From: an uncultured Chlorobiaceae bacterium
GTDB taxonomy: Bacteria > Bacteroidota > Chlorobiia > Chlorobiales > Chlorobiaceae
Reading direction: 5' to 3'
Assembly: GCA_903939765.1 (NCBI GenBank)
Contig: CAJAIK010000101.1
Coordinates: forward strand, 1-32,472
Length of the DNA stretch: 32,472 nucleotides
A program made the position numbers and the translations under genes. The notes under the pieces were generated by a model, which saw only the letters and a list, made by a program, of their open reading frames with translations, did not search any database and was not told the origin of the DNA. Below are positions 2,898 to 32,472 of the stretch, piece by piece; positions within the stretch are counted from its first letter, which is position 1, and every line of letters starts with the position of its first letter.

Positions 2898-4646
2898 TTA
2901 TGCCACCGCTTCTGCCAGGTGGGCCTCCACAAGTTTGCGGCGAAGCACTTTGCCTACGGTTGATTTTGGCAGTACCTGAATGAATTCAACATGTTTGGGC
3001 ACCTTGTAGGCCGCGAGGTCTTTTCGGCAGTGCTCCCGGAGTTCTTCAACCGTAAGCTGGTGACCCGGACGCAAGACAACCCACGCCTTGACCGCTTCGC
3101 CCTGGTAGGGATCAGGCACACCGGCCACACCAACTTCGAGGACTGACGGGTGAACGGCTATGGCCTCCTCAACATCACGGGGCCAGACCTGGAAACCGCC
3201 GGGTTTGATGACATCTTTTTTGCGGTCAACAATAAAGAGGTAGCCATCCTCATCAAGATAGCCAAGATCGCCGGTATAGAGCCAACCGTCACGAAGAACA
3301 AGTGCCGTTTCCATCGGATTCTGCCAGTACTCTTTCATGAGCTGGGGGGCTCGCATAATGATTTCCCCTATTTCAAGCTCGGCAAATGTTTTCAGGCCGG
3401 TTTCCGGATCAACAATCCTTATCTCGACATCCGGTACAGGAATGCCTACCGAGCCGTGCTTGTAGGTGCCAAGAATGGGGGTAAAGACCGAGGCAAGTGC
3501 TGATTCTGTAAGGCTGTAGGCGTCGATAATGCGCCCTCCCGTCAACTCTTCAAAACGTTTTTTTGTTTCGAGCATGAGTGGAGCTGCGCCTGAAACACTC
3601 AGTTTGAGCGATTTGAGCATCGAGCGGTCACGCTTGACTTTGGGGTGGTTGAGCAGTGCGGTAAAGAGGGTCGGCACACCGGGCAGTACCGCCGCTTTCA
3701 GGGTTTTGATGGTATGCAGAAGGTCGTCAAGGTCACGCGGATTTGGCACAAGGGCAACCGGGTAGCGAGCAATCAATGCGGCGGTCAGAATGCCAACCTG
3801 GGCATAGACGTGGAAGAGTGGCATGTTGAGCAGGATAATGTCTTTCCCTTTTTCAAGGATAACACTGAACCAGCTCGCAATCTGCATGCCGGTCATCACC
3901 ATCGCCTGATGGCTGATGACAACGCATTTGGGGTTGCCGGTTGTCCCTCCCGAAAAGAGGAAAATTGCCGGATCGTCGAACTTGATGGCAACCGGTACAA
4001 ATGACCGACCGGTTTGGGCGGCAAGAAGCGCACTCAGCCAATGGTCTCCGGAATGCAGTTTTACTCTGTGCCCATCCTTTTTCTCTTTGAAGAGGCTGAA
4101 GAGTGTGCTGTTGAGGGGTGAAAGATACTCCTTGATACGGGTTACAATAACCCTTTTGAGGCGCGAAACGCTCTGGGCTGCCTTGATTTTTTCGTAGAAG
4201 GGGGTGAGGACAATGACGGTCTCTGCACCGCATTCATTGAGTGCGTGTTCAAGCTCGTTGACGGTGTAGAGTGGATTCATGGGCACCGCAATAGCTCCGG
4301 CTTTCCAGACTCCGAACTCGCTGATAAGCAGTTGCGGTGAGTTGGGCATGATGAGGGCAACCCGGTCCTCCTTACCCAATCCAAGCGAGAGCAGGGCTGC
4401 GGCAAGCGCATCGCTTTGCTGCTCCAGTTCGAGGTTTGAGAGCGCACGTCCCTTGAAATACATTGCGGGATGCCGGGGCTGCTCCTCTGCACTCCTCCGG
4501 AGAACATCGACCAGTGTCTCTTCCGGGTATGGATGAAGCGTGTGGGGAACTCCCTTGTCGTAATGGCGAATCCAGGGCTTTGCTCTCATGGCTGTTATTG
4601 ACGTTTTTTTAATCTTGTATGGCTCGGAAACAAAGGGATAGTACAT
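2898..4646 (-). CDS. Long-chain fatty acid-CoA ligase (AMP-forming, FadD-like)
   Basis: This is a class I adenylate-forming enzyme of 582 residues, the usual size for FadD-type ligases that activate fatty acids with ATP and CoA at the inner membrane. The P-loop-like motif FSGGTTGNPK lies near residue 235. The A5-type YSLTES and the TGDLG motif with DGYLFIVDRKKD follow, and the C-terminal catalytic lysine is in KSTVGKVLRRKL. The open frame can start at ATG 4646, 24 bases after bioA. An internal ATG at 4589 (MRAKPW) aligns better with the family N-terminus, and neither has a strong RBS. Its position directly behind bioA suggests co-transcription with the biotin genes. It could supply an acyl-CoA, but pimelate activation is not needed here because BioC/BioG are present. 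The stop is followed in the same frame by the truncated peptidase. Confidence 0.85.
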   Translation of the reverse strand: MYYPFVSEPYKIKKTSITAMRAKPWIRHYDKGVPHTLHPYPEETLVDVLRRSAEEQPRHPAMYFKGRALSNLELEQQSDALAAALLSLGLGKEDRVALIMPNSPQLLISEFGVWKAGAIAVPMNPLYTVNELEHALNECGAETVIVLTPFYEKIKAAQSVSRLKRVIVTRIKEYLSPLNSTLFSLFKEKKDGHRVKLHSGDHWLSALLAAQTGRSFVPVAIKFDDPAIFLFSGGTTGNPKCVVISHQAMVMTGMQIASWFSVILEKGKDIILLNMPLFHVYAQVGILTAALIARYPVALVPNPRDLDDLLHTIKTLKAAVLPGVPTLFTALLNHPKVKRDRSMLKSLKLSVSGAAPLMLETKKRFEELTGGRIIDAYSLTESALASVFTPILGTYKHGSVGIPVPDVEIRIVDPETGLKTFAELEIGEIIMRAPQLMKEYWQNPMETALVLRDGWLYTGDLGYLDEDGYLFIVDRKKDVIKPGGFQVWPRDVEEAIAVHPSVLEVGVAGVPDPYQGEAVKAWVVLRPGHQLTVEELREHCRKDLAAYKVPKHVEFIQVLPKSTVGKVLRRKLVEAHLAEAVA

Positions 4647-4670
4647 ACTGAAAGATTATGAAACAAAATT

Positions 4671-5963
4671 TCACTCCATCGAATTCACAATATCACAAAC
4701 TGCGGCAGTTAATATCCCGAGTTCTTCGTCGCGCATGATAAAAGGAGGCATAAGATAGACCAGACGACCAAAGGGGCGTACCCACACCCCTTTTTCAACA
4801 AACTGTTTCTGGATGAGAGCCATATCGACCGGTCGGTGCAGTTCAACCACCCCTATGGCACCAAGCTGACGAACATCGGCCACATTGCTTCCATCGCGGC
4901 ACGGCTCAAGCCCCTGACGAAGCCCGGCTTCGAGCCGCAGAACCGATGCCTGCCAGTCATAACTGCATAGGAGACTGATGTTTGCCGACGCAACGGCACA
5001 GGAGAGAGGGTTGGCCATAAAGGTAGGACCGTGCATGAAGAGCCCCGGATTGCCTGAACAGATTGCCTCTGCCACCCTCTCTGTTGTCAGCGTTGCGGCC
5101 AGGGTCATGTAACCGCCGGTCAGTGCCTTGCCGACACAGAGGATGTCGGGCACCACGTCAGCATGTTCGAGCGCGAACATCTTTCCTGTACGACCGAAGC
5201 CGGTGGCGATTTCGTCGAAAATGAGCAGCACATTGTAGTGGTCGCAGAGTTCTCGAAGCCGACAGAGATAGTGCGGGGAGTAAAAGCGCATTCCCCCGGC
5301 ACCCTGAACCACTGGTTCGATGATCACAGCGGCAATCTCGCGGTGATGCTCTTCAAGCTTCTGGTGAAGATCTGCCATATCCTCCTGGGTGCAGGGCTCA
5401 CAAAATCGTGGTGCTGGCGCTTCGGCAAAGTAGTGTTCCGGCATCACCCCCTTGAAGAGGGAGTGCATGCCCGTTACCGGGTCGCAAACCGACATGGCGG
5501 CAAAGGTGTCGCCGTGGTAGCCGGAGCGGACGGTCAGCAACCGGTTTTTCAGGGGTTCACCCAGAGCCGCCCAGTACTGAAAAGCCATCTTGATGGCCAC
5601 TTCAACGGCGACGGAGCCGGAGTCGCTGAAAAAGAGCTTCTGCAATGGCTCGGGAGTCAGTGCCACCAACTGTTTTGCAAGGGTTATGGCTGGCTGATGG
5701 GTGAGACCTCCAAACATGACGTGGCTCATCAGTTGCAGTTGACTGACCACCGCCTCATTAAGCACGGGGTGGTTGTAGCCGTGAATGGCGGCCCACCAGG
5801 AGGACATGCCATCAACCAGCCTGCGGCCATCTTCAAGTTCAAGAAAGACTCCGCTGGCTCGGGCAACCGGATAAACCGGCAGAGGAGCCGTTACGGAGGT
5901 GTAGGGATGCCAGAGATGCTCACGGTCAAAATCAAGGTCAATTGATGCGGGTTGTATGGCCAT
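4671..5963 (-). CDS. bioA: Adenosylmethionine-8-amino-7-oxononanoate aminotransferase
   Basis: BioA converts KAPA to DAPA, normally with S-adenosylmethionine as amino donor and PLP as cofactor. The 430-residue protein is full length. Substrate-site signatures are HLWHPYTS near residue 17 and [15 protein letters not shown] near 52. The PLP-phosphate region is [15 protein letters not shown], the cofactor aspartate is D250 (IFDE), and the Schiff-base lysine is K279 in CVGKALTGG. It starts 21 bases after the bioD stop, so it belongs to the same transcript; it is the last dedicated biotin gene of the cluster. Nothing looks degraded. Confidence 0.95.
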
Positions 5964-5984
5964 ACCGATAGAGGCAATAACATG

Positions 5985-6662
5985 TTATAATAATGAAAGA
6001 CGGGCAAGAGCATCCCGATCAGGCGGCCCGTCACGCAGGTCGATGATCGGCGCTGCATACCCCGCTTTGGCGAGATAATGAAAAATCACCTCACGGGTAT
6101 CATCAGCGATCAGCTTATCGACCTCCTGAAAACAGTTGTAGATAACCCCTCTGATAACAATTCCCCTGTGCCGACAGGCCTCAATGGAGAGGAGTGTGTG
6201 GTTGATGCTGCCAAGCCGGGGGCTCGTAACAAGCAGAAGCTCGTACCCTGCATCCCGGATATAGTCGACAAAAAGAAGGTCGAGGGTGAGAGGAACAAGG
6301 AGTCCTCCAACCCCCTCGAGAAGCACCAGGTCGTAGCGTTGCTGCAAAGCAATGGTAGAGCGTCGGATACGCTGAAGATCAACCTCCAGGCCTTCCAGGG
6401 CGGCGGAAAGGTGGGGAGAGGCCGGATAGCGGAAAACAGACGGGCAGGTGAGCCCCTCCCGGTCGGAGTCCTGCACTCCAATCCCCATAAGCCGACGATG
6501 TTCGAGAATATCTTCCGCTATCCCTTCACAACCGGTCTGGACAATTTTCTGGGTAATGACCGTTTTGCTCCGCCCAAGGAGAGCTTTGGCGAGCAGACCG
6601 GTCGTGTATGTTTTTCCGACTCCTGTGTCAATACCGGAAACAGCAAGGACCGTTCCGTTCAT
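5985..6662 (-). CDS. bioD: Dethiobiotin synthetase
   Basis: BioD carboxylates DAPA with CO2 and ATP to close the ureido ring. The 225-residue protein opens with the P-loop GIDTGVGKT (residues 10-18), the BioD form of the Walker A motif. QTGC and LLEGVGGLLVPL follow, the latter contributing to substrate and metal binding. Its ATG overlaps the bioC stop by 4 bases (ATGA), indicating translational coupling. The length and motifs are normal for the family. Confidence 0.93.
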   Translation of the reverse strand: MNGTVLAVSGIDTGVGKTYTTGLLAKALLGRSKTVITQKIVQTGCEGIAEDILEHRRLMGIGVQDSDREGLTCPSVFRYPASPHLSAALEGLEVDLQRIRRSTIALQQRYDLVLLEGVGGLLVPLTLDLLFVDYIRDAGYELLLVTSPRLGSINHTLLSIEACRHRGIVIRGVIYNCFQEVDKLIADDTREVIFHYLAKAGYAAPIIDLRDGPPDRDALARLSLL

Positions 6663-7441
6663 GAGATTCTCTTTTTCATGCAGAAATATAGGGGATGATA
6701 GGTCAGGTAGACACCATTTTCACAAGAAAAAAGTCGCCGGTACTCTGCTATAAAATGGAGGTAGCGGCTTTTTGTCCATGAGCGGCGAAGCAATCCGTTG
6801 ACGCCAGTAGAGCGGATGTGGTGCAGCATTGCCTCTGGTGAAGTGAACTCCACACGTAACGTCTCTTCGCGGCTGACGCTTATTTCAAAATAACGTCCTG
6901 CAAGAAGCCGAAGCTCCCCGAGGGTGTAATAGCTGAGGCCGACACCTTCGATGGTTGCTATTTCACGCATGTTCGAGGGGCCGAAGGTGGTGACGGCGAG
7001 CATCCCGCCAGGCTTGAGACAATCAGATATTTTTCGAAAAAATCCGTCAAGGTCATGAAGCCATTGCACGGTGGCATTCGAAACGACCATGTCGAGCGAT
7101 GAGGGCAAAAGCTCCTGGCGCTCAATATCACCGGCCAGGAAGTGAAACTCCCCGACAGGATAGCGGCCAAGAACCTCCTGGAGAGCGCTCTGGCTCTCTT
7201 CGACAAGATCATTGGCATAATAGCTGCCGACGGTGCAACGCCCCAGCAACTCTGCCATGAGTGCCCCTGAACCTGAGCCAACTTCGAGTATCCGCTCAAA
7301 CGATCGGCTTGGCTCCTGCTGACAGATGATCTCTGAAAGTTCGCGGGCCATCGCTTTCTGCACCACAGCCTGGCTGCTGTAGCTGCGCAGGGTTCGGCAA
7401 AACCGGTCGCGAACCAGTTGCTTGTTGATCAACGGATGCAT
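6659..7441 (-). CDS. bioC: Malonyl-ACP O-methyltransferase
   Basis: BioC methylates the free carboxyl of malonyl-ACP using SAM, disguising it so that fatty-acid synthesis can extend it to pimeloyl-ACP methyl ester. The 260-residue protein has a class I methyltransferase fold. The SAM-binding glycine motif ILEVGSGSGAL is at about residues 51-61, followed by the acidic loop and SNATVQWLHDL, typical of BioC. The N-terminal KQLVRDRFCRTLRSYSSQA resembles the BioC cap. It overlaps the bioG stop by 13 bases and is coupled to bioD by ATGA, consistent with BioG being its dedicated partner. Confidence 0.92.
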   Translation of the reverse strand: MHPLINKQLVRDRFCRTLRSYSSQAVVQKAMARELSEIICQQEPSRSFERILEVGSGSGALMAELLGRCTVGSYYANDLVEESQSALQEVLGRYPVGEFHFLAGDIERQELLPSSLDMVVSNATVQWLHDLDGFFRKISDCLKPGGMLAVTTFGPSNMREIATIEGVGLSYYTLGELRLLAGRYFEISVSREETLRVEFTSPEAMLHHIRSTGVNGLLRRSWTKSRYLHFIAEYRRLFSCENGVYLTYHPLYFCMKKRIS

Positions 7442-8118
7442 TCAAGCACCTCCTGCAAGTTCCTGAAATGAAAAAAAGGAAAGTGGGGCATATCAGCGAT
7501 AACAGTTTGAGGAAGACCTTTCCAGGCACAGTACTGCTGCTCTGCCGGAAATATCAGATCACGTCCCCCGATAATGGCATGATCGTAGCGCCATGCAGTA
7601 CCGCCTGCTGCACCCTGCATCAGGAAGTGCACCTGCAACTGCTCCAGCTCTTCGAGCTGATCAGCCGCGCTGCGGTCGGGCGACATGGATGAAAAAAGGA
7701 GGTGCGCTTCGCCCAAGCCACACATCCTGCGGTTGAAGCGGTTGCGGCTTTTTTCACTATAGTTTGCCAGAGTTGCCTGAAAAACCTCGGGGCTGATTCC
7801 TCTTTCTGCACTGACCGGATGCAGGGTACCGTTAATGGCAATCGCGCACTTGACCGGTGGCAGCTCTACATGCTGTGCAACCCAGACACCAAATGACCAG
7901 GCAACCACCGTTATGCGGCGATAGCTTCCGAGTTCCCTCATAAAGCCGGCTTCTGGCTCCAGAGTACGATAGTCGTAGCAGAGCAGCAAATCGGCCTCAA
8001 AACCTTCCGGAAGCGACTCGGCGAGAAGATGGGCGCCAATTCGGCTATCCATGCCCCAACCGTTGAAAAAAAGCAGAAGCTCTTCAGCTCCCTCTTTTCT
8101 GAGCCATGCGGTTTTCAT
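7429..8118 (-). CDS. bioG: Pimeloyl-ACP methyl ester esterase, BioG type
   Basis: BioG removes the methyl group from pimeloyl-ACP methyl ester, ending chain elongation; it is the non-homologous-in-sequence substitute for BioH. The 229-residue alpha/beta hydrolase (DUF452) has the oxyanion-region motif FNGWGMD at 18-24 and nucleophile S75 in VVAWSFGVW. The likely acid is D187 (GGRD) and the base H212 (DMPHFPFF). The family uses A/G-W-S-x-G rather than the common GxSxG, as seen here. The ATG overlaps the bioF stop (ATGA). The bioF-bioG-bioC-bioD order matches the arrangement known from Haemophilus-type biotin operons. Confidence 0.92.
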   Translation of the reverse strand: MKTAWLRKEGAEELLLFFNGWGMDSRIGAHLLAESLPEGFEADLLLCYDYRTLEPEAGFMRELGSYRRITVVAWSFGVWVAQHVELPPVKCAIAINGTLHPVSAERGISPEVFQATLANYSEKSRNRFNRRMCGLGEAHLLFSSMSPDRSAADQLEELEQLQVHFLMQGAAGGTAWRYDHAIIGGRDLIFPAEQQYCAWKGLPQTVIADMPHFPFFHFRNLQEVLECIR

Positions 8119-9284
8119 ACTGCGGTTATCCTCCCGATAAGTTCAGGAATTCGCTCAATATCTTCCCATTGCAGTGTTGAGCGGAGCGAAATGCGGATAC
8201 GGGCGCTCTTTTCAGGAACCGTAGGCGGACGCACAGGCAAACAGAGAAATCCGGCACCCCGAAGGCGTGCAGAGAGCGCTACTGCGAGCGCATTACTGCC
8301 GGTAATCACAGGAACAATATGACTTTCACCCGGAACATCAAGGGAGAGGGCAATCAGTTCACTGCGGAGCTTCGATGCAAGCTGCAGAAGCGCCTGGCGC
8401 TCCCCGCTCATGGAGGCCTGCCGTCCGAGGGTGAGCAGGCTCCAGCCAAGAATGGCGGGAGGCAGGGCCGTGGTAAAAATAAAGGAGCGCATGGTATTGA
8501 TCAGGTACTCCCTGAAGAGAGAGCTCATCACGGCGTAGGCTCCTGTTGAGGCAAGTGCCTTACCGAAGGTCCCGGTGATGATATCAATCTGCTGCACCAC
8601 ACCGGCCGTTTCACAGAGGCCAAGACCGCGCTCTCCAAAGACTCCGACACCGTGTGCTTCATCAACAATAAGCACTGCCCCGTACCTCTCTTTCAGGGCA
8701 ACAAGCCGTGACATGTCGGCCAGGTCTCCGTCCATGCTGAAAACCGATTCGGTGACAATGAATATCTGGCGATAGCGATCACCAGCTCCGGCAAGCAGCT
8801 CTTCAAGATGATCGTAGTCGAGGTGGCGGTAGCGCTGGTAGGGTGCTTCGGCAATTTTCATGCCGTCAATGATGCTTGCATGGTTCTTCCGGTCACTGAG
8901 CACAAGATCGTGACGACCGCAAAGCGCCGGAATGATACCGATGTTGGCGTGATAGCCGCTGTTGAACACCAGCGCAGCTTCACGCCCGTAGAGCGCCGCA
9001 AGGGCCCGTTCCAACTGTTCGTAGAGGGGGTGGTTACCCGTCAGAAGACGGGAGGAGGAGCTGGTCATGGCATACTTCCTCTCCCTGAACTCTTCCATAT
9101 ACGCAGCATGCAGTTCCAGGTCATCGCCAAGGCCGAGATAGTCGTTCGAGGAGAGATTCAAAAGGCTTTGCCCGCCCACGGCAATATGGTTGCCTTGCCG
9201 GGCTGTGATATCGGGAAGCACCCGGTAGCGGTCGAGCTGGCGGAGCCCGTCGAGTTCCTGCCGAATCCGTTCCTGAAACTGCAT
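8115..9284 (-). CDS. bioF: 8-amino-7-oxononanoate synthase
   Basis: BioF condenses pimeloyl-ACP/CoA with L-alanine in a PLP-dependent decarboxylating reaction giving KAPA. I choose the ATG at 9284 (389 residues) rather than the upstream in-frame ATG at 9338, which would overlap bioB by 41 bases. A GGGAG sequence sits 9 bases before 9284 and the family N-terminus (FQERIRQELDGLR) begins there. Numbering from that start, conserved elements are SNDYLGL near 46, the DEAHGVGVFG cofactor motif with D208, and Schiff-base lysine K242 in TGTFGKALASTGAY. bioG begins within its stop codon. Confidence 0.93.
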   Translation of the reverse strand: MQFQERIRQELDGLRQLDRYRVLPDITARQGNHIAVGGQSLLNLSSNDYLGLGDDLELHAAYMEEFRERKYAMTSSSSRLLTGNHPLYEQLERALAALYGREAALVFNSGYHANIGIIPALCGRHDLVLSDRKNHASIIDGMKIAEAPYQRYRHLDYDHLEELLAGAGDRYRQIFIVTESVFSMDGDLADMSRLVALKERYGAVLIVDEAHGVGVFGERGLGLCETAGVVQQIDIITGTFGKALASTGAYAVMSSLFREYLINTMRSFIFTTALPPAILGWSLLTLGRQASMSGERQALLQLASKLRSELIALSLDVPGESHIVPVITGSNALAVALSARLRGAGFLCLPVRPPTVPEKSARIRISLRSTLQWEDIERIPELIGRITAV

Positions 9285-9288
9285 AACG

Positions 9289-9299
9289 GCGGCTCCCTC
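9289..9299 (-). promoter_or_regulatory. Ribosome binding site fixing the bioF start
   Basis: On the minus strand the bioB stop TGA runs straight into GGGAG, followed by CCGCCGTT and the ATG at 9284. The spacing of about 8-9 bases is ideal and decides the bioF start against the longer reading from 9338. Confidence 0.6.
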
Positions 9300-10302
9300 A
9301 GTTAAACGTTGCAATCTGGCGGGCAAACTGGTGGTCATCAGTAATATCGCGTCCTCGTGTGGTCAGGTAACCTCCTGTCAAATAGCCATTTGCGCCAGAA
9401 AGCATCAAAAGCCCCTGAAAATCTTTCATGATGGTCTCCCTGCCCGCAGCAAACTTGATAACTTTATGGGGATGTGCCAGACGGCAGATGGCGAAGGTTT
9501 TTACAATGTCGGCTACGGAAACCGGCTCTTTTCCTGCAAGAGGGGTTCCTTCGATTGGCACCAGCACGTTGAGCGGTATGACGGAGACATCAAGTTCCTG
9601 AAGCGCAAAAATCATGGCAATCCGATCCTGCATGGATTCACCGACCCCCATAATACCGCCACAACAGACTGATATATTGTTCTTTCTCAGCAACTTGATG
9701 GTCTCGATCCGCTCTTCGACACTATGCGTATCGGCAATGAGCGTGTTGTATTTGTCGGGCGCAACCTGAATGTTGATGTTGTAGTGGGCAATACCATGCG
9801 CGGCAAGCGCCTCCGCAGGCTCTTCGCCCAACATGCCAAGCGAGGCGCAGACGCTCAGTTCGGGCAACTCGGCATGGAGACGGTCAATCATGTCGAGTAC
9901 ACGCTGAAACTCAGGGTTTATCCGTTTATAACCGTAGCCACTGGTCACGATTCCGAAATGAGAGACTCCTGCGGAAAAACAGTTCCGTGCTTCAATCAGC
10001 ACGGACTCTTCATCGACCAGATCATAGACCTCAATGTCGGCCCGATTGTGCCGGGACTGTGCACAAAAACGGCAGTTTTCGCCACATACCCCCGATTTTG
10101 CATTCATGATAGAGCAGGCATGAATCGCTTCAGGACCGCTTCCATAACGGTTTTTAACTTTATTTGCAAGAGAGGCCAGGTCAAGCGCAAGCTCACCCGG
10201 TAACTCGGCAAGCAGCAGAGCTTCGGCATGGCTGATCGGTTCACCGGTTTCAAGCACACGGTACGCCGCGACAATTTGGGGGTGAAGCGTTGGTTTATCC
10301 AT
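9298..10302 (-). CDS. bioB: Biotin synthase (radical SAM)
   Basis: BioB inserts sulfur into dethiobiotin, using a radical-SAM [4Fe-4S] cluster plus an auxiliary Fe-S cluster as sulfur donor. The 334-residue protein carries the radical SAM motif C73-x3-C77-x2-C80 ([10 protein letters not shown]). The family segments [15 protein letters not shown] and [10 protein letters not shown] follow, as do the C-terminal [15 protein letters not shown] residues of biotin synthases. It begins 12 bases after birA ends and is followed by bioF with a small gap, so it is the second gene of the operon. Confidence 0.94.
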
Positions 10303-11444: not shown

Positions 11445-13175
11445 TCAGCGCCCCATTGCCGCCATGCTTGATATTTCGTAATTTTTGCGGTAGCTCTGCA
11501 ATCCCTGAAAAATAGTGTATGCGATTTTTTTCTGCTCCTGGTGATCACGAAGAATCTGCTCCTCCTGTGGATTCGAGAGGTAACCCACTTCGACAAGGGC
11601 ACTCGGCATGGAAGGGCTCCATAACACCATAAAACCTGCCTGGTGAACTCCGCCTCGATTATTGGCCGTCTGCTGATCGTCCGAATTGAGAATGTGCCGG
11701 GCAAGAGATGTGGACTGCCTCACAAATGCACTCTGAGCCATACTGGTCATGATGAGATACTCCTCAGTAAAGCCTTTGTAAGCCTGTCTGTAGTCAGCCT
11801 CCTGGCGTATAACCGAGTTTTCAAAGAGGGCGACGTCAAGCGCCTCCTTCGTTTTGTGGGCTCCGAGAATATAGACTTCGGAACCGCGAACATTACGATT
11901 CAAATTCGCATTGCAATGCACGCTGATAAAGAGTTTTCCGCCACTCTGGTTTGCTATTTTCCCCCGTTGAAGCAGAGGAATAAAGATATCCTCCTTTCTG
12001 GTGTAGATGACCCGCACATCAGGCCATTTCTCCGTGATAAACCGACCAAGATCACGAACAATGTTCAGTGCCACATCTTTTTCAATGGTGCCGTTTCCTC
12101 CTGTAGCACCGGGATCCTTTCCTCCATGACCTGCATCAAGCACAATCGTGTCAAGCTTCCATTTTTCAATATCGCGACTGAGAACCTTTGCAATCTGCCG
12201 TTCTTTGTCCGTTCGGCGACCACCTTCCACATCAGTAGCAGTGCGGACATAGACTAGATAAGTGTTACGTTTTTTATCGCGCTGAAATTCAACAGAATTG
12301 ATTACAAAAGAGCGATTGTCGAGCGCGATGGTAAACTGTAACCCTTCTCTGGCAACGTGTTTCGGAGTGATTGCGCTGACCACACCTCCGCTACCGTACA
12401 CTTTTGTTAATGCACGAATATCACAAGAGGCTTTTTCAAGCGAAAAATAGGTGTACCCCTCTTTATTCAGCGTAACAAGTGATGCCTGTGCCTCGACACC
12501 GGAAGCTGAGAAGGTGATGACCGCTCCATTCGAACGTTTTTTAACTTCAATACCGGTAATCACCGTTTTCTCTTTTTCAGCCTGGATGGTGCCGCCTCCT
12601 ATGTCAGAGTGACCATCATCGCTGACAATCCCGATTGTTCCGTCCAACTCCGCAGAACTTTTTCTGTCCAGCCGGATGCTTATCTGACTTGACGATGGAT
12701 TGTAGACCACCTCCCGGTCCAACCAGATGCTGAAAAACCGGCATACCTGACTGACCGGCAACAAGAGCCGTGACTGTATCAGTGACGGCGCTGAAGAGAG
12801 TTGTATAACCCTTTTTGGAAGTTCCGGATTCCTCGAGAGAACGCGGACAAAATTATTGTCGGCCATGATCGTACAAATCGTACCGGGCATCCCGAAAGAT
12901 TCTTCGATAACGAGCCCGGCTTGACCATTACTGTAACCCAGGCGCAAAGCCCGAACCATAGATTCAAGATCAATCATCAACACACCCGCTCTGCTTTGGG
13001 CTTCTATCTTCATGGTATAGCCCTGATCCTCTCCTGTGATCACATTGAGCGAAACAGTGCACGGTCCTGATTGAACAGAAGGAAGTGCTGAAAGAGTTCT
13101 GAAAAAGAGCATCAAAAGCGTCACCAAGAGCAAAACGACCAAACCGGAACGAAAAGGAAGCAAATTGTGGCGCAT
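11445..13175 (-). CDS. N-acetylmuramoyl-L-alanine amidase (Amidase_3, AmiC-like)
   Basis: This periplasmic zinc amidase cleaves the lactyl amide between N-acetylmuramic acid and L-alanine in peptidoglycan. It has 576 residues: an N-terminal membrane/signal segment (about 10-30), then ~300 residues resembling a copper-amine-oxidase-like N-terminal/AMIN-type beta region, then the Amidase_3 domain from about 340. Zinc ligands are H350 (DAGHGGKDPG), E365 (GTIEKD) and H420 (SVHCNAN), and the catalytic glutamate is E529 (LVEVGYLSNP). All are intact. It is divergent from topA, and its stop is 137 bases from the birA start. The long N-terminal part probably targets the enzyme to the wall or septum. 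Confidence 0.88.
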   Translation of the reverse strand: MRHNLLPFRSGLVVLLLVTLLMLFFRTLSALPSVQSGPCTVSLNVITGEDQGYTMKIEAQSRAGVLMIDLESMVRALRLGYSNGQAGLVIEESFGMPGTICTIMADNNFVRVLSRNPELPKRVIQLSSAPSLIQSRLLLPVSQVCRFFSIWLDREVVYNPSSSQISIRLDRKSSAELDGTIGIVSDDGHSDIGGGTIQAEKEKTVITGIEVKKRSNGAVITFSASGVEAQASLVTLNKEGYTYFSLEKASCDIRALTKVYGSGGVVSAITPKHVAREGLQFTIALDNRSFVINSVEFQRDKKRNTYLVYVRTATDVEGGRRTDKERQIAKVLSRDIEKWKLDTIVLDAGHGGKDPGATGGNGTIEKDVALNIVRDLGRFITEKWPDVRVIYTRKEDIFIPLLQRGKIANQSGGKLFISVHCNANLNRNVRGSEVYILGAHKTKEALDVALFENSVIRQEADYRQAYKGFTEEYLIMTSMAQSAFVRQSTSLARHILNSDDQQTANNRGGVHQAGFMVLWSPSMPSALVEVGYLSNPQEEQILRDHQEQKKIAYTIFQGLQSYRKNYEISSMAAMGR

Positions 13176-27474: not shown

Positions 27475-28314
27475 TCATGGCAACGCCCTTTTGGATGCAA
27501 ACCTTTTGCGACCCACAACGAGAAGCGCCACCACCCATGTCAAGAGCACAACCAAAACAAGAGGTCTGGTACTGCCAGCCGATTCAGGGCTGATCTTCAA
27601 GGCGCCAGACCAGGTATTGACGGCAGCATGGAAGAGCATGACCAGTAACAGGCTCTCTGTTGAGCCGTGATAGACCCAAGTGATCAAGATGCTCAGAGGC
27701 ATGGTCAGCAAGGCGAAGAGCCAAAAAGACAGACTGTGCTGAGCCGAGGCTGAAATGAAAAAGAGCGGCAAATGCCACACCGTCCAAATGATACCCAGAA
27801 TAAGGCTGTCCCATGGTGGGCTAAAACGTGCCTCAAGTGCCGGGAGAACAACTCCCCTCCAACCGAACTCTTCGCCCAGCGGCCCGCCAATCAGAAAAAC
27901 CAGAACGAAATTGACCGCGACAATTAACCACCGAGCGCCAAACGGGACATAGTCGGGCACGGTGCCACCCAATACGATGTGCCCGCCCATAGCCAGCAAT
28001 ATCACCATTGCCGGTCCAACGATGGCGAGCAGATACCAGATTGGAGAAACACACCAGACTAATGCCCGACCGAGCAACTGACGCAGCTCAGTTCCGCCAG
28101 CGTATCTCCAGGTTAAAAACAGAGCAGCAACGCTCGGTGCAAAGGAACCTAACGTGATAAAAACAACGGACGGCACCGTCAGCGAGAGCCGCAGATACTC
28201 AACAATCAGCAGTGGCAACCAAATAAGCCAGGCGCCTCCAAAGGTTGCCAGCAAATATAAGGGGAGTGGAATACAATTTCCCGAGCTTGTACCGCGCGAA
28301 TGTGCTGGTTGCAT
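27475..28314 (-). CDS. CPBP-family intramembrane metalloprotease/glutamic protease
   Basis: CPBP (Abi/Rce1-like) proteins are polytopic proteases; some confer immunity to bacteriocins or process prenylated peptides. From ATG 28314 (279 residues) there are about eight hydrophobic segments. Motif 1 EEFGWRG has E148/E149, motif 2 contains H181 (VWHLPLFF), and motif 3 is FHAAVN with H229 and N233, so the catalytic set is complete. The earlier TTG reading from 28359 is less likely. A basic tail (GRKRFASKR) ends it. It is the first gene of the accessory segment, with no evident partner to indicate a substrate. Confidence 0.82.
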   Translation of the reverse strand: MQPAHSRGTSSGNCIPLPLYLLATFGGAWLIWLPLLIVEYLRLSLTVPSVVFITLGSFAPSVAALFLTWRYAGGTELRQLLGRALVWCVSPIWYLLAIVGPAMVILLAMGGHIVLGGTVPDYVPFGARWLIVAVNFVLVFLIGGPLGEEFGWRGVVLPALEARFSPPWDSLILGIIWTVWHLPLFFISASAQHSLSFWLFALLTMPLSILITWVYHGSTESLLLVMLFHAAVNTWSGALKISPESAGSTRPLVLVVLLTWVVALLVVGRKRFASKRALP

Positions 28315-28429
28315 GGAACCTCGTTCATCGTTGATGTATACCCAGCCACAAAGCAACAAGTGGCAGAGGCACGATGATTTATAACATTAATGCCACAACA
28401 ATAGCCTGACAAAGTATGGCAAAATAATT

Positions 28430-29812
28430 TTACTTTTTCCCCGACACTTTCACAGCAATATATTTTTGTTTGGGACTGTTCGGCTTGTCCGGTATGGTCG
28501 GAACAAGCAATCCTGCTTTCAGCAAAGGCGCCAAAATCTCGACACGAAAATGTTCGCGATGCTTTAACCCTAAGAATGCCTGAATCTCTTCTCTGCTTCT
28601 GGCTATAAAACAAAACTCCAATATGGCCAACAGTTTATCCTCCCCGACTTGCTCGGTAGCTTGCTCGGTAGCTTGCTCGGTAGCTTGCTCGGTGACTTTA
28701 TCGCGCTGAAACACAGCCCGAACAAAACCGGAGAACTCATACTTCAGCGGCTCAAGACCTGCCTCCGCCAACAGTTTTTGCATGCGCATCACCCCGGTGC
28801 CCATTTTTTCGATATAGTCAATGCGCTGCATCAGGTTGGCGATGTTTGGATTGCGGAGCAAGCTCACCTTACCGAAATCTTCAACGTTCAGTCCCTTTGG
28901 CAATCCACCCGGACTGGTTATATCTACCCGATCATCAAATATTTCGATCATGACGTTAGCTCCCTTTTCAAAATAGTCCCGGTGAACCACCGCGTTGATG
29001 ACCGCTTCACGAAGAGCCTCATAGGGAATTTCCGGAATTTCCCTGCGTGCCGGAGAGCCGTCAAACACATATCGGACTTTAAGATGCTGCTTGAGATAAA
29101 GCACAGCCTCGTCAATACTCTCCACAATATCACGATTAAAATCCTTGCGGTCGAGCACCGTCACCTTATCCAACCCCTTGTATATGGCGCAGGTTACGCA
29201 AGTGTGAAAGTAATGATCTGCCAAGTTTCTGGAAAAGAAGAGCACCGTAGTGTTGTAATAGAAACATTGGCCATGCTGTATTTCCGCCGCGTGCAGGTTC
29301 TTCAACATAGAGGTCGTTTCCATAACTCAGGAAATTCCGGCCATACGTAAAAATCGACCGAATTTTGTTTCATCAAAATCCTCTGCGCTGAAATCACGCT
29401 TGATCAACTCATCAAAGCGGACTTTACCCTCGGATTTGACAAACTCCAGAATCTCGTCTCGGTTCATCTTCTGGGCATTGGGGCCTGTGCGGTTATAGAA
29501 ACCGGATGTGCAGCGATATGGCTTGTCTATTCCTTTCCTAACCTCGACAATCAGAATATTCTGAAATTCCTCAAAGAGAATCTGCACCGAAGGATCGCAA
29601 TTGCGGGCAATATCCTGTATCTGCGACTTGACTTTATTGGTTATCTCAAAACCCTTGAGTCTCTTGTCATCTGCGATTCCCAGAAAGATGAAACCACCTG
29701 AAGCATTGGCAAAGGCCACAAACTCCTTATCGAGATTGGCAAGCTGCTCCTTGAATTCAATGCGGTAGCCTTCACCTTCGGCCAATACCATGAGCAGTTC
29801 CTGTGCTGTCAT
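28430..29812 (-). pseudogene. AlbA_2 / RecG-like ATPase-domain transcriptional regulator, interrupted by one in-frame TGA
   Basis: Residues 1-161 form an AlbA_2 (Schlafen-like) DNA-binding domain (EGYRIEFKEQ near 14; FANASGGFIFLGIAD near 32). The second part continues in the same frame with a family ATP-binding-like domain (EALREAVINAVVHRDYF, SPGGLPKGL). A TEQA repeat linker and a C-terminal winged-helix region (SREEIQAFLGLKHREHF) follow. The two halves are separated only by codon 162, a TGA at 29329-29327; the next ATG is two codons later at 29323. Intact relatives run through this point, so I treat it as one gene of about 460 codons with a nonsense mutation. The halves could still be made separately by termination and re-initiation. 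A Shine-Dalgarno-like AGGTGG precedes ATG 29812. Confidence 0.75.
28648..28695. repeat. Four tandem 12-bp repeats coding a Thr-Glu-Gln-Ala linker
   Basis: The unit CTTGCTCGGTAG is repeated four times head to tail (the last copy differs at its final two bases). On the coding strand it gives repeated ATEQ between the ATPase-like and winged-helix parts of the regulator. Each unit is four codons, so copy-number change would keep the frame. Similar TEQ-rich linkers are common in this family. Confidence 0.85.
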
Positions 29813-30034
29813 ACCGCCACCTAATTGAGTTTCACAAACAGGCCTTCTCCCTAAAAAATGGAATCATAACGTATGGCCTGTAAAAAAAGTATGATCAAAG
29901 TATCAATATTTCCAGCAACAATGAATAGCTTTGGTGTAATATATTTCAGCAACCATAGTCAATACGTGCGGAGGTCATCATTAATAAGACTCTTGATTGC
30001 CCCGTTCCTGAAATCATGCGTATTAAATCAACTC

Positions 30035-30235
30035 TTACTGATTGCAGAATAAATGCTTGCGACTCGGTAAGGAGTAGTCCCTTGCTGAAATCGTTTTTTT
30101 AGCTTTAGCGACCAGAGGCTCAACTTTGGTTATATCTCCACCGCATCCCTTTAAAATGGCCGTTTGGGCCAGTTCTCGCTTAACTTCGTATGTTCTCTTC
30201 CCATCACTGAACTTATTACTCGTCGTAACGCTCAC
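30035..30235 (-). CDS. Small hypothetical protein
   Basis: Sixty-six codons from a GTG at 30235, preceded by AAGGAG about 11 bases upstream. The sequence is hydrophilic and mixed-charge (FSDGKRTYEVKRELAQTAIL, then DITKVEPLVAKAKKTI) with a predicted helical middle. I do not recognise a family. It could be a short DNA-associated protein or the tail of a broken gene; the surrounding DNA holds other fragments. An overlapping GTG four bases earlier opens only a seven-codon frame. Confidence 0.4.
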   Translation of the reverse strand: MSVTTSNKFSDGKRTYEVKRELAQTAILKGCGGDITKVEPLVAKAKKTISARDYSLPSRKHLFCNQ

Positions 30236-30302
30236 TCACCGTCCGACTCCTTACGTTTTCACAATCATATCCTTGAGCCCAAACGGTAGTATTCAACCGC
30301 TG

Positions 30303-30518
30303 TTATGCTGACCGGAAACAAACCACGGTTACTCGGATCGGCTTGAGCGGATTGCTCTTCATTTCCCTTCCTTCACGGACAAAATCGACAATCTCCTTAG
30401 TCGAAATTTGAGCTTTAATAGTTGGGACATCTAATGGAGAAGCTGCAATATTTTCAGGAATCAAGGCAAATATGTGCCCATCTTTTCTCCGTATCAGAAC
30501 TTTACCTGAATTTTCGAT
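30303..30518 (-). pseudogene. Antitoxin-like fragment in frame behind the PIN toxin stop
   Basis: Directly after the PIN gene stop (TGA 30521-30519) the same frame stays open for 71 codons to a TAA at 30305-30303. The segment ENSGKVLIRRKDGHIFALIP followed by SPLDVPTI and EIVDFVREGRE resembles the C-terminal part of small Phd-like antitoxins that pair with PIN toxins. It has no start codon near its beginning and lacks an N-terminal DNA-binding part, so it looks like a decapitated antitoxin gene joined to the end of the toxin gene. The last ~15 residues look unrelated. Confidence 0.5.
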
Positions 30519-30920
30519 TCATTTACGGTCGGCTATCATCAACCCATGCTTCTCATAGTTTGGTGCAGCACCATCAACAGACAAAAAATGGATGTTTTGG
30601 CTAATACATTGCCAAATCATGATTCGATCAAACGGGTCTCGATGCTCGATGGGAAGTCGGTGGAAGGAGATCAGTTCTTCGTTCAAAAGAGGCAGACATT
30701 GAAAATGACTCATTTCAATTTCTTCGTACAATTCCTCTGGAGTCATACCCTTGAGAACCAACTTTCCAGAATTAAACTTGATGGATATTTCCCATAGACT
30801 TGCTTGACTGAAGAAGACCTCACTTTCGTCTGAAACCAAGATATCCACAGCCCATTGGGGTAACTTCTCTGGATTAGTAAATGACCAAATCAGATAGTGT
30901 GTATCAAGCAATATTTTCAT
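30519..30920 (-). CDS. PIN-domain toxin (VapC-like)
   Basis: A 133-residue PIN-domain ribonuclease of the type that cleaves tRNA or rRNA unless bound by its antitoxin. The acidic site is formed by D6 (LLDTHYLIW), E44 (SLWEISIK), D95/D98 (HRDPFDR) and D116 (FLSVDGA), all present. The ATG at 30920 overlaps the antitoxin stop (ATGA), the usual coupling of such pairs; the longer reading from 30953 lies within the antitoxin. The variant starting MKILLDTHYLIW is typical of the PhoH-independent, Phd-partnered PIN subgroup. Confidence 0.88.
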   Translation of the reverse strand: MKILLDTHYLIWSFTNPEKLPQWAVDILVSDESEVFFSQASLWEISIKFNSGKLVLKGMTPEELYEEIEMSHFQCLPLLNEELISFHRLPIEHRDPFDRIMIWQCISQNIHFLSVDGAAPNYEKHGLMIADRK

Positions 30921-31156
30921 GAATTCAAGAATTCCTCGTCCGACATTTTCCAATCGTCCCGGAACTCAACTTGTACCTTTCCGGCCAAGGAACCGAGTTT
31001 TCTCTCTTTAATTCTTTTGTACTCAGCAATTGGAACAATGACCGCAATCGTATGTCGCGTGCGACCAAACGAAATACCGATTTCATTTCCTGATTCGACT
31101 TCCTTCAGGAGTGATGAGAGATTTGACCGAACTTCGGCGACAGGTACTGTTTTCAT
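30917..31156 (-). CDS. Phd/YefM-type antitoxin
   Basis: A 79-residue antitoxin beginning MKTVPVAEVRSNLSSLLKEVESG at ATG 31156, described here by its ends; the N-terminal Phd fold binds DNA and represses the operon. IGISFGRTRHTIAVIVPIAEY is the central strand region. The C-terminal LAGKVQVEFRDDWKMSDEEF is the toxin-neutralising tail. It is immediately upstream of, and translationally coupled to, the PIN toxin. A TATACT box lies 12 bases upstream of the start with TTGTAG 18 bases before it, so transcription may start very close to the ATG. Confidence 0.85.
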   Translation of the reverse strand: MKTVPVAEVRSNLSSLLKEVESGNEIGISFGRTRHTIAVIVPIAEYKRIKERKLGSLAGKVQVEFRDDWKMSDEEFLNS

Positions 31157-31162
31157 ATTCCA

Positions 31163-31192
31163 AGTATAGATTGAACACATGAGGAACTACAA
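31163..31192 (-). promoter_or_regulatory. Possible promoter of the Phd-PIN operon
   Basis: On the minus strand TTGTAG and TATACT are spaced by 18 bases, with the -10 box ending about 7-12 bases before the antitoxin ATG. If used, the transcript would be almost leaderless. Assignment rests on hexamer likeness only. Confidence 0.35.
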
Positions 31193-31443: not shown

Positions 31444-32049
31444 TCAGCCGATCAAAACACATCTGCCCGAAACAGACCAAAGCGGCCTCCCCCCGTGAAA
31501 ACCGTTGACACAAGATGCTAACATCCTTCGTGAACTGATACCCGCTGGTGCGATGCCGGAGCGATGCTGCATGACAAAACGTCCAAATGACGACTGGTGC
31601 CTGTGTGAATTCAGCGCACAGTAAGCCAGTCCGAGTTGATTGAGCCGTAAGGCGTGCGCTACAAAACTTGTGAGACAAATCATAACAAGTGGTCTAATAT
31701 GCCAAGCTGTGTGCTCGTGGAAAACAGTGCCTGTTACGATTACACTTCTTCCTGCTTTTGCTTTTAATGTACGACCGATTTTTTCTGAGTTTGAATACAA
31801 TTGAATTTCTGAAATGTCGGATTCATCACAGTTTATTTCATTTTCTTGGTCAGCTTTGATTCCAACAGGCACTTTGAGTTTTATGAAAGAATAATGAACC
31901 CACTGACCATTTGGATGCTGAAATTTACCTTGATGTACAGTGCCTGACAATTCGACAACAATAGGTTCGTATTGAATTACTTGGTCGCAAAACGCGAAGT
32001 TAGGAATAAAACTGTAAAAAAAGAAAATGGTCAGAAATAGGTATTGCAC
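31444..32049 (-). CDS. Secreted DUF4431-like cassette protein, C-terminus probably read through
   Basis: The GTG at 32049 is preceded by AAAGGAG at 9-10 bases and follows the attC core by only 25 bases, the usual position of a cassette gene. A signal peptide (about 1-20, ending near AFC) leads into QYEPIVVELSGTVHQGKF. The region through GRSVIVTGTVFHEHTAWH matches small DUF4431 proteins, whose function is unknown. Family-like sequence ends near RPLVMI (about residue 124). The remaining ~75 residues look like translated non-coding DNA, including a possible decayed attC, so the original stop appears lost. The DUF4431 portion is about 31678-32049. Confidence 0.6.
   Translation of the reverse strand: MQYLFLTIFFFYSFIPNFAFCDQVIQYEPIVVELSGTVHQGKFQHPNGQWVHYSFIKLKVPVGIKADQENEINCDESDISEIQLYSNSEKIGRTLKAKAGRSVIVTGTVFHEHTAWHIRPLVMICLTSFVAHALRLNQLGLAYCALNSHRHQSSFGRFVMQHRSGIAPAGISSRRMLASCVNGFHGGRPLWSVSGRCVLIG
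31600..31676 (-). other. Possible decayed attC site
   Basis: On the minus strand GTCTCAC (for GTCTAAC) is followed by AGCGCAC, a 34-base interior, GTGCGCT, then TGAATTCA and CACAGGC (for AACGTTAGGC). The pairing AGCGCAC/GTGCGCT and the TGAATTCA box occupy the positions seen in the intact site at 32075-32144, but both core sites are mutated. It lies where the attC of the DUF4431 cassette is expected. Confidence 0.4.
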
Positions 32050-32074: not shown

Positions 32075-32144
32075 GCCTAACGTTTGAATTCACCGGCGAT
32101 GCGCGGCTTTATCGCGCAGCGTCCGGTGGAATGATGGGTTAGAA
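32075..32144 (-). other. Integron attC recombination site (59-base element)
   Basis: On the minus strand this 70-bp site starts with TTCTAAC (R'') and ends with the canonical GTTAGGC (R'). Between them TTCCACCGG pairs with CCGGTGAA apart from one unpaired base, the extrahelical base used by IntI for strand choice. The centre forms a second imperfect stem (GCTGCGCG/CGCGCATC) with an ATAAAGC loop. TGAATTCAAACGTTAGGC at the 3' end is typical of attC sites from chromosomal integrons. It lies 37 bases after the stop of one cassette gene and just before the next, all in one orientation. Confidence 0.82.
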
Positions 32145-32180: not shown

Positions 32181-32365
32181 TCAAAATACAACCCTTGATT
32201 CAATTGCATACGAGAAATCTTCTGGGAATCTGTTAATAACTTCGCTCCAAGAGCCTGTTGGGCATATGGCGAGCCATGAGAAATTATTGGCAGCCAAGAA
32301 GGCTGTTGTTTTTGGGTATTCTTGAGAAAACATGTTCCATGTGGCCTGATACTTTTCTCTCACTC
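32181..32365 (-). pseudogene. 5'-truncated cassette gene cut by an IS630-family insertion
   Basis: The frame ending at the TGA 32181-32183 encodes about 60 residues with WNMFSQEYPKTTAFLAANN and FSWLAICPTGSWSEVI. I do not recognise the family. It has no convincing start: a GTG at 32363 and an internal ATG (MFSQEY) lack RBS. The reading runs into the TA at 32366-32367, where the IS element begins. It is therefore most likely the 3' part of a cassette gene, with its attC correctly placed downstream. Confidence 0.5.
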
Positions 32366-32367
32366 TA

Positions 32368-32472
32368 GTGTCCCGAATGGTTAATCCTTTGTGTTATTAG
32401 AAAGGCTATCTTTAGCCCGTTGAACCGATGCCAGAATTGCATTCGCACTTTTCGTCCATCTGAAAGGTTTTG
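32368..32472 (-). mobile_element. End of an IS630-family insertion sequence
   Basis: The element edge is inferred at GTGTCCCGAATGGTTAATCC (from 32368), adjacent to a TA dinucleotide at 32366-32367, since IS630/Tc1-like elements target and duplicate TA. It contains the transposase 3' end and continues beyond the window, so the other inverted repeat cannot be seen. Confidence 0.55.
32381..32472 (-). CDS. IS630-family transposase, C-terminal end (5' cut by window)
   Basis: The minus-strand frame encodes KPFRWTKSANAILASVQRAK and nine more residues before a TAA at 32383-32381. The KPF-x-WTKSA-x-x-IL pattern is characteristic of the C-terminal tail of IS630-family DDE transposases. Only 29 residues lie in the window, so the catalytic triad is not visible. 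The stop is 13 bases from the inferred element end, as is usual for compact IS elements. Confidence 0.65.
   Translation of the reverse strand, partial: KPFRWTKSANAILASVQRAKDSLSNNTKD

Follow-up and report, generated by a model that had tools for sequence, protein, structure and literature searches.

A genuine attC site in a Chlorobiaceae contig and the attI-headed cassette array to which it very probably belongs

The window, that is, the whole stretch of DNA analysed, is contig C101 in full (CAJAIK010000101.1; 32,472 nt) from an uncultured Chlorobiaceae bacterium (GCA_903939765.1), whose assembly amounts to 2.98 Mb in 128 contigs. As the initial annotation of this DNA had supposed from the letters, it comes from a green sulfur bacterium, and the nearest relatives of the host's integron integrase (intI) are from Chlorobiaceae MAGs (79–94% identity); the Chlorobiaceae genomes compared here are likewise mostly metagenome assemblies. 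The features at the right end of the window are as follows.

31631–31656, minus strand: possible half of a worn attC (GCCTTACGGCTCAATCAACTCGGAC) following the DUF4431 gene, picked out by eye
31660–32049, minus strand: second cassette gene, DUF4431 protein (PF14485), from a Pfam match and the alignment with a related genome, G069
32075–32144, minus strand: attC of the first cassette, from a covariance model and the bottom-strand fold
32081–32075, minus strand: R', GTTAGGC
between 32081 and 32080, minus strand: attC crossover, G^TT
32144–32138, minus strand: R'', TTCTAAC
32181–32367, minus strand: 3' end of the first cassette gene, the last ~60 codons of a 270-aa frame, from an in-frame join with contig C83, on which the start lies
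32368–32472, minus strand: end of an insertion sequence, which splits the cassette gene at 32368 and ends the contig

The site at 32075–32144 is a genuine attC and an ordinary member of its class, and the initial annotation had placed it correctly. It lies on the minus strand, as do both flanking genes, and along that strand it consists of R'', L'' (CATTCCACCGG), the inner stem and loop, L' (CCGGTGAATTC) and R'; the two cores are inverted, R'' with one mismatch to RYYYAAC at its first base and R' fitting GTTRRRY. A loose finder based on cores and folding gave clear background in shuffled sequence, and a covariance model was used instead, built from 20 attC sites on C88, a contig of the window genome, and at loci of other genomes downstream of integron integrases, with the window site excluded. 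This search, which the initial annotation had proposed, recognises the stem with its L''/L' pairing and returns the window site as the top match genome-wide (E 2.6e-5 over 3 Mb), at 45.1 bits on the minus strand against 14.6 bits on the plus strand, which rules out the plus-strand orientation. Folding of the bottom (recombining) strand, also proposed at that stage, gives −19.4 kcal/mol as DNA (z −4.3; 0 of 200 shuffles as good), while the top strand gives −16.8 kcal/mol (z −3.6). An imperfect stem with a single extrahelical base had been described; the stem holds, but by eye the bottom strand has two such bases, the G in GTG[G]AAT and the T in GCG[T]CCGG, and a G and a T are the usual attC pair.

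The spacing around the site is that of gene cassettes. The gene downstream has its GTG start at 32049, 25 nt past the R' core, exactly as annotated; the gene upstream has the annotated orientation, but its stop codon is 36 nt from R'' rather than 37, and what the window contains is only its 3' fragment. A chance hairpin or transcription terminator resembling attC might be suspected on the grounds that the cores are short and degenerate and that a loose core-and-stem search has its background in shuffles; this reading is effectively refuted, its probability being negligible, by the E-value and strong strand asymmetry under the independent model, by the cassette spacing and by the homology with G069, which restarts at the crossover as described below. 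An Rfam scan of the window gave zero matches. The site would be recombined on the bottom strand at G^TT by an integron integrase, for which the first cassette's difference from that of G069, with close homology returning at this crossover, is indirect evidence.

Taken by itself, the window contains one attC, with integrase and attI both absent, which is what would be expected of a plain CALIN, a stray attC cluster without attI that arose from off-target cassette insertion. This explanation is improbable in view of C83, whose attI has the position and orientation required, and of G069, where a single contig carries attI, cassette, attC and DUF4431 gene. At its right end, C83 has an insertion-sequence end with an inverted repeat matching that of the window; the terminal 108 bp of the element also occur at C66:34–141, and by inspection it appears to be IS630-like, with a TA target and inverted ends GTGT...ACAC. 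Once the insertion sequence is removed, a single 270-aa frame is obtained, whose start lies 14 nt beyond the attI crossover and whose end comes ahead of R'', so that the array reads attI, 14 nt, 270-aa gene, 36 nt, attC, DUF4431 gene. The gene of the first cassette has zero Pfam matches. In G069 the locus is continuous on one contig: the flank and attI are followed by a gene of 324 aa and an attC whose R' is worn, and after these come the DUF4431 gene and the remainder of the window region; C83 matches it at 88% in the flank and 84% in attI, and C101 matches it at 94% from attC onward. The first cassette differs between the two species and has a separate attC in each; close homology restarts at the attC crossover. 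No assembly spans the joint between C83 and C101, and the reading frame together with synteny indicates that the two contigs are probably adjacent. Because of the match between C83 and G069 and the 270-aa frame, the window site is taken to be the attC that closes the first cassette of an attI-headed array. Measured against the definition of a CALIN, the locus has no integrase nearby, one convincing attC where the default is at least two, and an attI that is placed by way of C83.

The DUF4431 gene is frameshifted in its last codons relative to G069, and its raw ORF continues to 31444; the putative half attC at 31631–31656 that follows it had zero covariance-model matches. With the first gene split by the insertion sequence and the second frameshifted, the array may be decaying. 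In a further genome, contig G052:C84 is similar over the 3' portion of the DUF4431 gene; the similarity breaks inside the gene, and attI is absent there.

An intact intI at this locus is absent in both the window genome and G069, so that the intact integrase gene beside attI that marks a complete integron is lacking; the attI on C83 adjoins only a worn 3' intI stub. Here, an attI is called solo if all that adjoins it of an integrase gene is a stub. The initial annotation had proposed a chromosomal integron, possibly cassette-only, with the integrase outside the window. The chromosomal-integron reading is supported, and the genome's one intact integron integrase is encoded on C88 (338 aa, without stop; TIGR02249, 477 bits); "cassette-only" is right in that this integrase lies elsewhere and wrong in that the array has its own attI with a decayed intI stub. 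On C88, intI is transcribed toward attI and the cassettes. The further attC sites that had been sought are present on C88 and C36, and several attI copies in the window genome adjoin intI remnants.

Both of these contigs contain more than a single attI with its cassettes. On C88, positions 4120–9340 of locus L014 (G000:C88:20000-30311) form a duplicated integron region, in which a partial serB copy precedes the intact intI-attI, and an intI 3' stub, a second attI and another cassette with attC are located past the intact serB (6920–8164, minus strand). On C36, locus L016 (G000:C36:25000-40000) has at 3142–6541 and 12146–12470, minus strand, a second solo attI accompanied by an intI stub, along with another intI stub and as many as three attC (36.9, 23.8 and 18.1 bits).

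The attI on C83 belongs to a larger family. The window genome has at least about nine to ten copies, the C88 copy included (nine were aligned), and all of them end at the G^TT crossover, after which the sequences differ. Across Chlorobiaceae, the ~60-bp attI is present in 67 of 86 genomes (with at most ten candidates scored per genome, so that copy numbers are lower bounds), and a strong intI match (E ≤ 1e-60) in 15 of 86; genomes with attI but without a strong intI match include three single-contig genomes, G001, G002 and G020. In groups other than Chlorobiaceae, the attI sequence was found in 2 of 50 genomes with a related integrase, and one of these two matches, provided that the contig numbering is what it seems, lies directly beyond the integrase. 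In 60 sampled attI loci, information content is high over the ~62 bp that lead up to the crossover and has dropped to background a few bases beyond it. Of 45 matches of the attC model (E ≤ 0.1), 44 lie downstream of attI and share its direction, and one lies elsewhere. The repeat is thus conserved up to G^TTRRRY, is followed by variable cassettes and adjoins a full intI in complete integrons (L161, L162, L164, L169 and C88), and it would be bound and recombined by its cognate integrase as attI. For the 64 attI sites in the sampled loci, a full integrase lies upstream in 4, a partial one in 17, and none was detected by tblastn in 43; the remnants beside the 17 are of graded length. When attI pairs with a common upstream flank are compared, 63 of 64 are without similarity in the 700 bp past the crossover, these pairs being non-independent, since they come from about ten loci, with the main serB-linked integron as the largest group.

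The attI sequence itself contains a block, ATCCGC-NNTNTA-GGCGGAT, with the potential to fold into a small hairpin, as well as a conserved TNYAAT-like block (60 loci, L159–L218; L014:5568-5629); integrase binding, a promoter or a leader would be candidate roles for them. A strict sigma-70 scan of the C83 attI gave no promoter; the TNYAAT-like block is nonetheless conserved.

In integrons generally, the integrase recognises attC as a folded bottom strand and attI as double-stranded DNA, and it cuts and joins at G^TT. The best explanation, which we regard as very probable, is a short array headed by a solo attI, in which the window attC is that of the first cassette and the C88 integrase acts in trans. 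The array would run from attI (C83) through the 270-aa gene, later split by the insertion sequence, to the window attC and the DUF4431 cassette, whose own attC would be decayed or missing. The C88 integrase would bind the folded bottom strand of the window attC, recognise double-stranded attI copies and cut R' at G^TT, between 32081 and 32080; cassettes would be excised as circles, with new ones inserted at attI, and in Chlorobiaceae such attI-headed arrays would be spread across many loci. Going by the cassette differences, action of the C88 integrase in trans on the window array is the most likely course, and the array would still be active at present.

A fossil origin of the locus is a possible but clearly less favoured alternative: a local integron would have lost its integrase, whereupon exchange ceased, leaving attI, attC and cassettes inert, and attI would be kept because it serves the gene that follows it, for instance by acting as its promoter. 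Such a history would suit the graded intI remnants beside the 17 sampled attI sites, several such remnants being in the window genome, and it is conceivable for the window array because the genes there are damaged, the first being split and the second frameshifted. It is less easily reconciled with first cassettes that differ at nearly all shared loci, with cassettes that differ between the window genome and G069 although neither has an intact intI at this locus, and with a window attC whose R' and stem are intact. To return to the attI-headed array served in trans, genomes with attI are mostly without a strong intI match, and trans action there would need an integrase from elsewhere or from the past. 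At the scale of the family, the balance tips slightly toward a decentralised integron, in which many inherited solo attI sites each head a short, fast-exchanged array and are served by one trans-acting integrase that is often lost and regained; as part of the same joint reading and with the same slight preference, the solo attI sites would be vertically inherited and scattered over the chromosome.

The usual description of an integron is of a single integrase with a single attI. It has been reported that complete integrons occur in Chlorobi (PMC9024848) and that the intI genes of Treponema cluster with the intI of Chlorobium phaeobacteroides (PMC3607928). The C88 integron resembles the reverse-type sedentary chromosomal integrons of Treponema denticola, in which intI likewise points toward attI and the cassettes; integrons of the Treponema type have one attI beside the integrase, whereas Chlorobiaceae have attI at many loci without an intact integrase. 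The CALIN of IntegronFinder (PMC9024848) are similar to the window array in bearing attC cassettes without an adjacent integrase, but the window array is headed by a recognisable attI. Mobilisation of integrase-less cassette arrays in trans is accepted (PMC12444791). In addition, the delta-attI cassettes of class 1 and class 2 mobile integrons are attI copies away from the integrase, where they can recombine (PMC12901181); delta-attI takes the place of attC at the 3' end of cassettes that lie within an array, while the Chlorobiaceae attI head arrays at separate chromosomal loci.

No matching report of solo, multiple or dispersed attI heading arrays was found in the open-access literature, and the dispersed solo attI sites appear to be new. 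Outside class 1, attI is poorly described and is not detected by IntegronFinder (PMC9024848), and for this reason dispersed attI may have been overlooked; current integron software would call such arrays scattered attC clusters or miss them. The excess of attI over strong integrase matches among Chlorobiaceae genomes (67 versus 15), with single genomes holding at least about ten attI, suggests cassette-capture sites scattered round the chromosome, away from a single integrase gene or without an integrase. Should an integrase serve these sites in trans, captured genes would have many entry points in one cell. The conserved ~62-bp attI can be used as a probe in searches and as a substrate in tests.

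Two other groups of genes are located near the array. Positions 27635–30361 (~2.7 kb) contain Schlafen/AlbA, HATPase/Fic-like-C and membrane protein genes, and this segment is absent from the otherwise colinear G069 locus. A pair consisting of a Phd/YefM antitoxin and a PIN-domain toxin (30519–31180) adjoins the array; the G069 alignment skips window positions 30687–30902, so that the toxin gene is internally deleted there and the antitoxin gene is kept.
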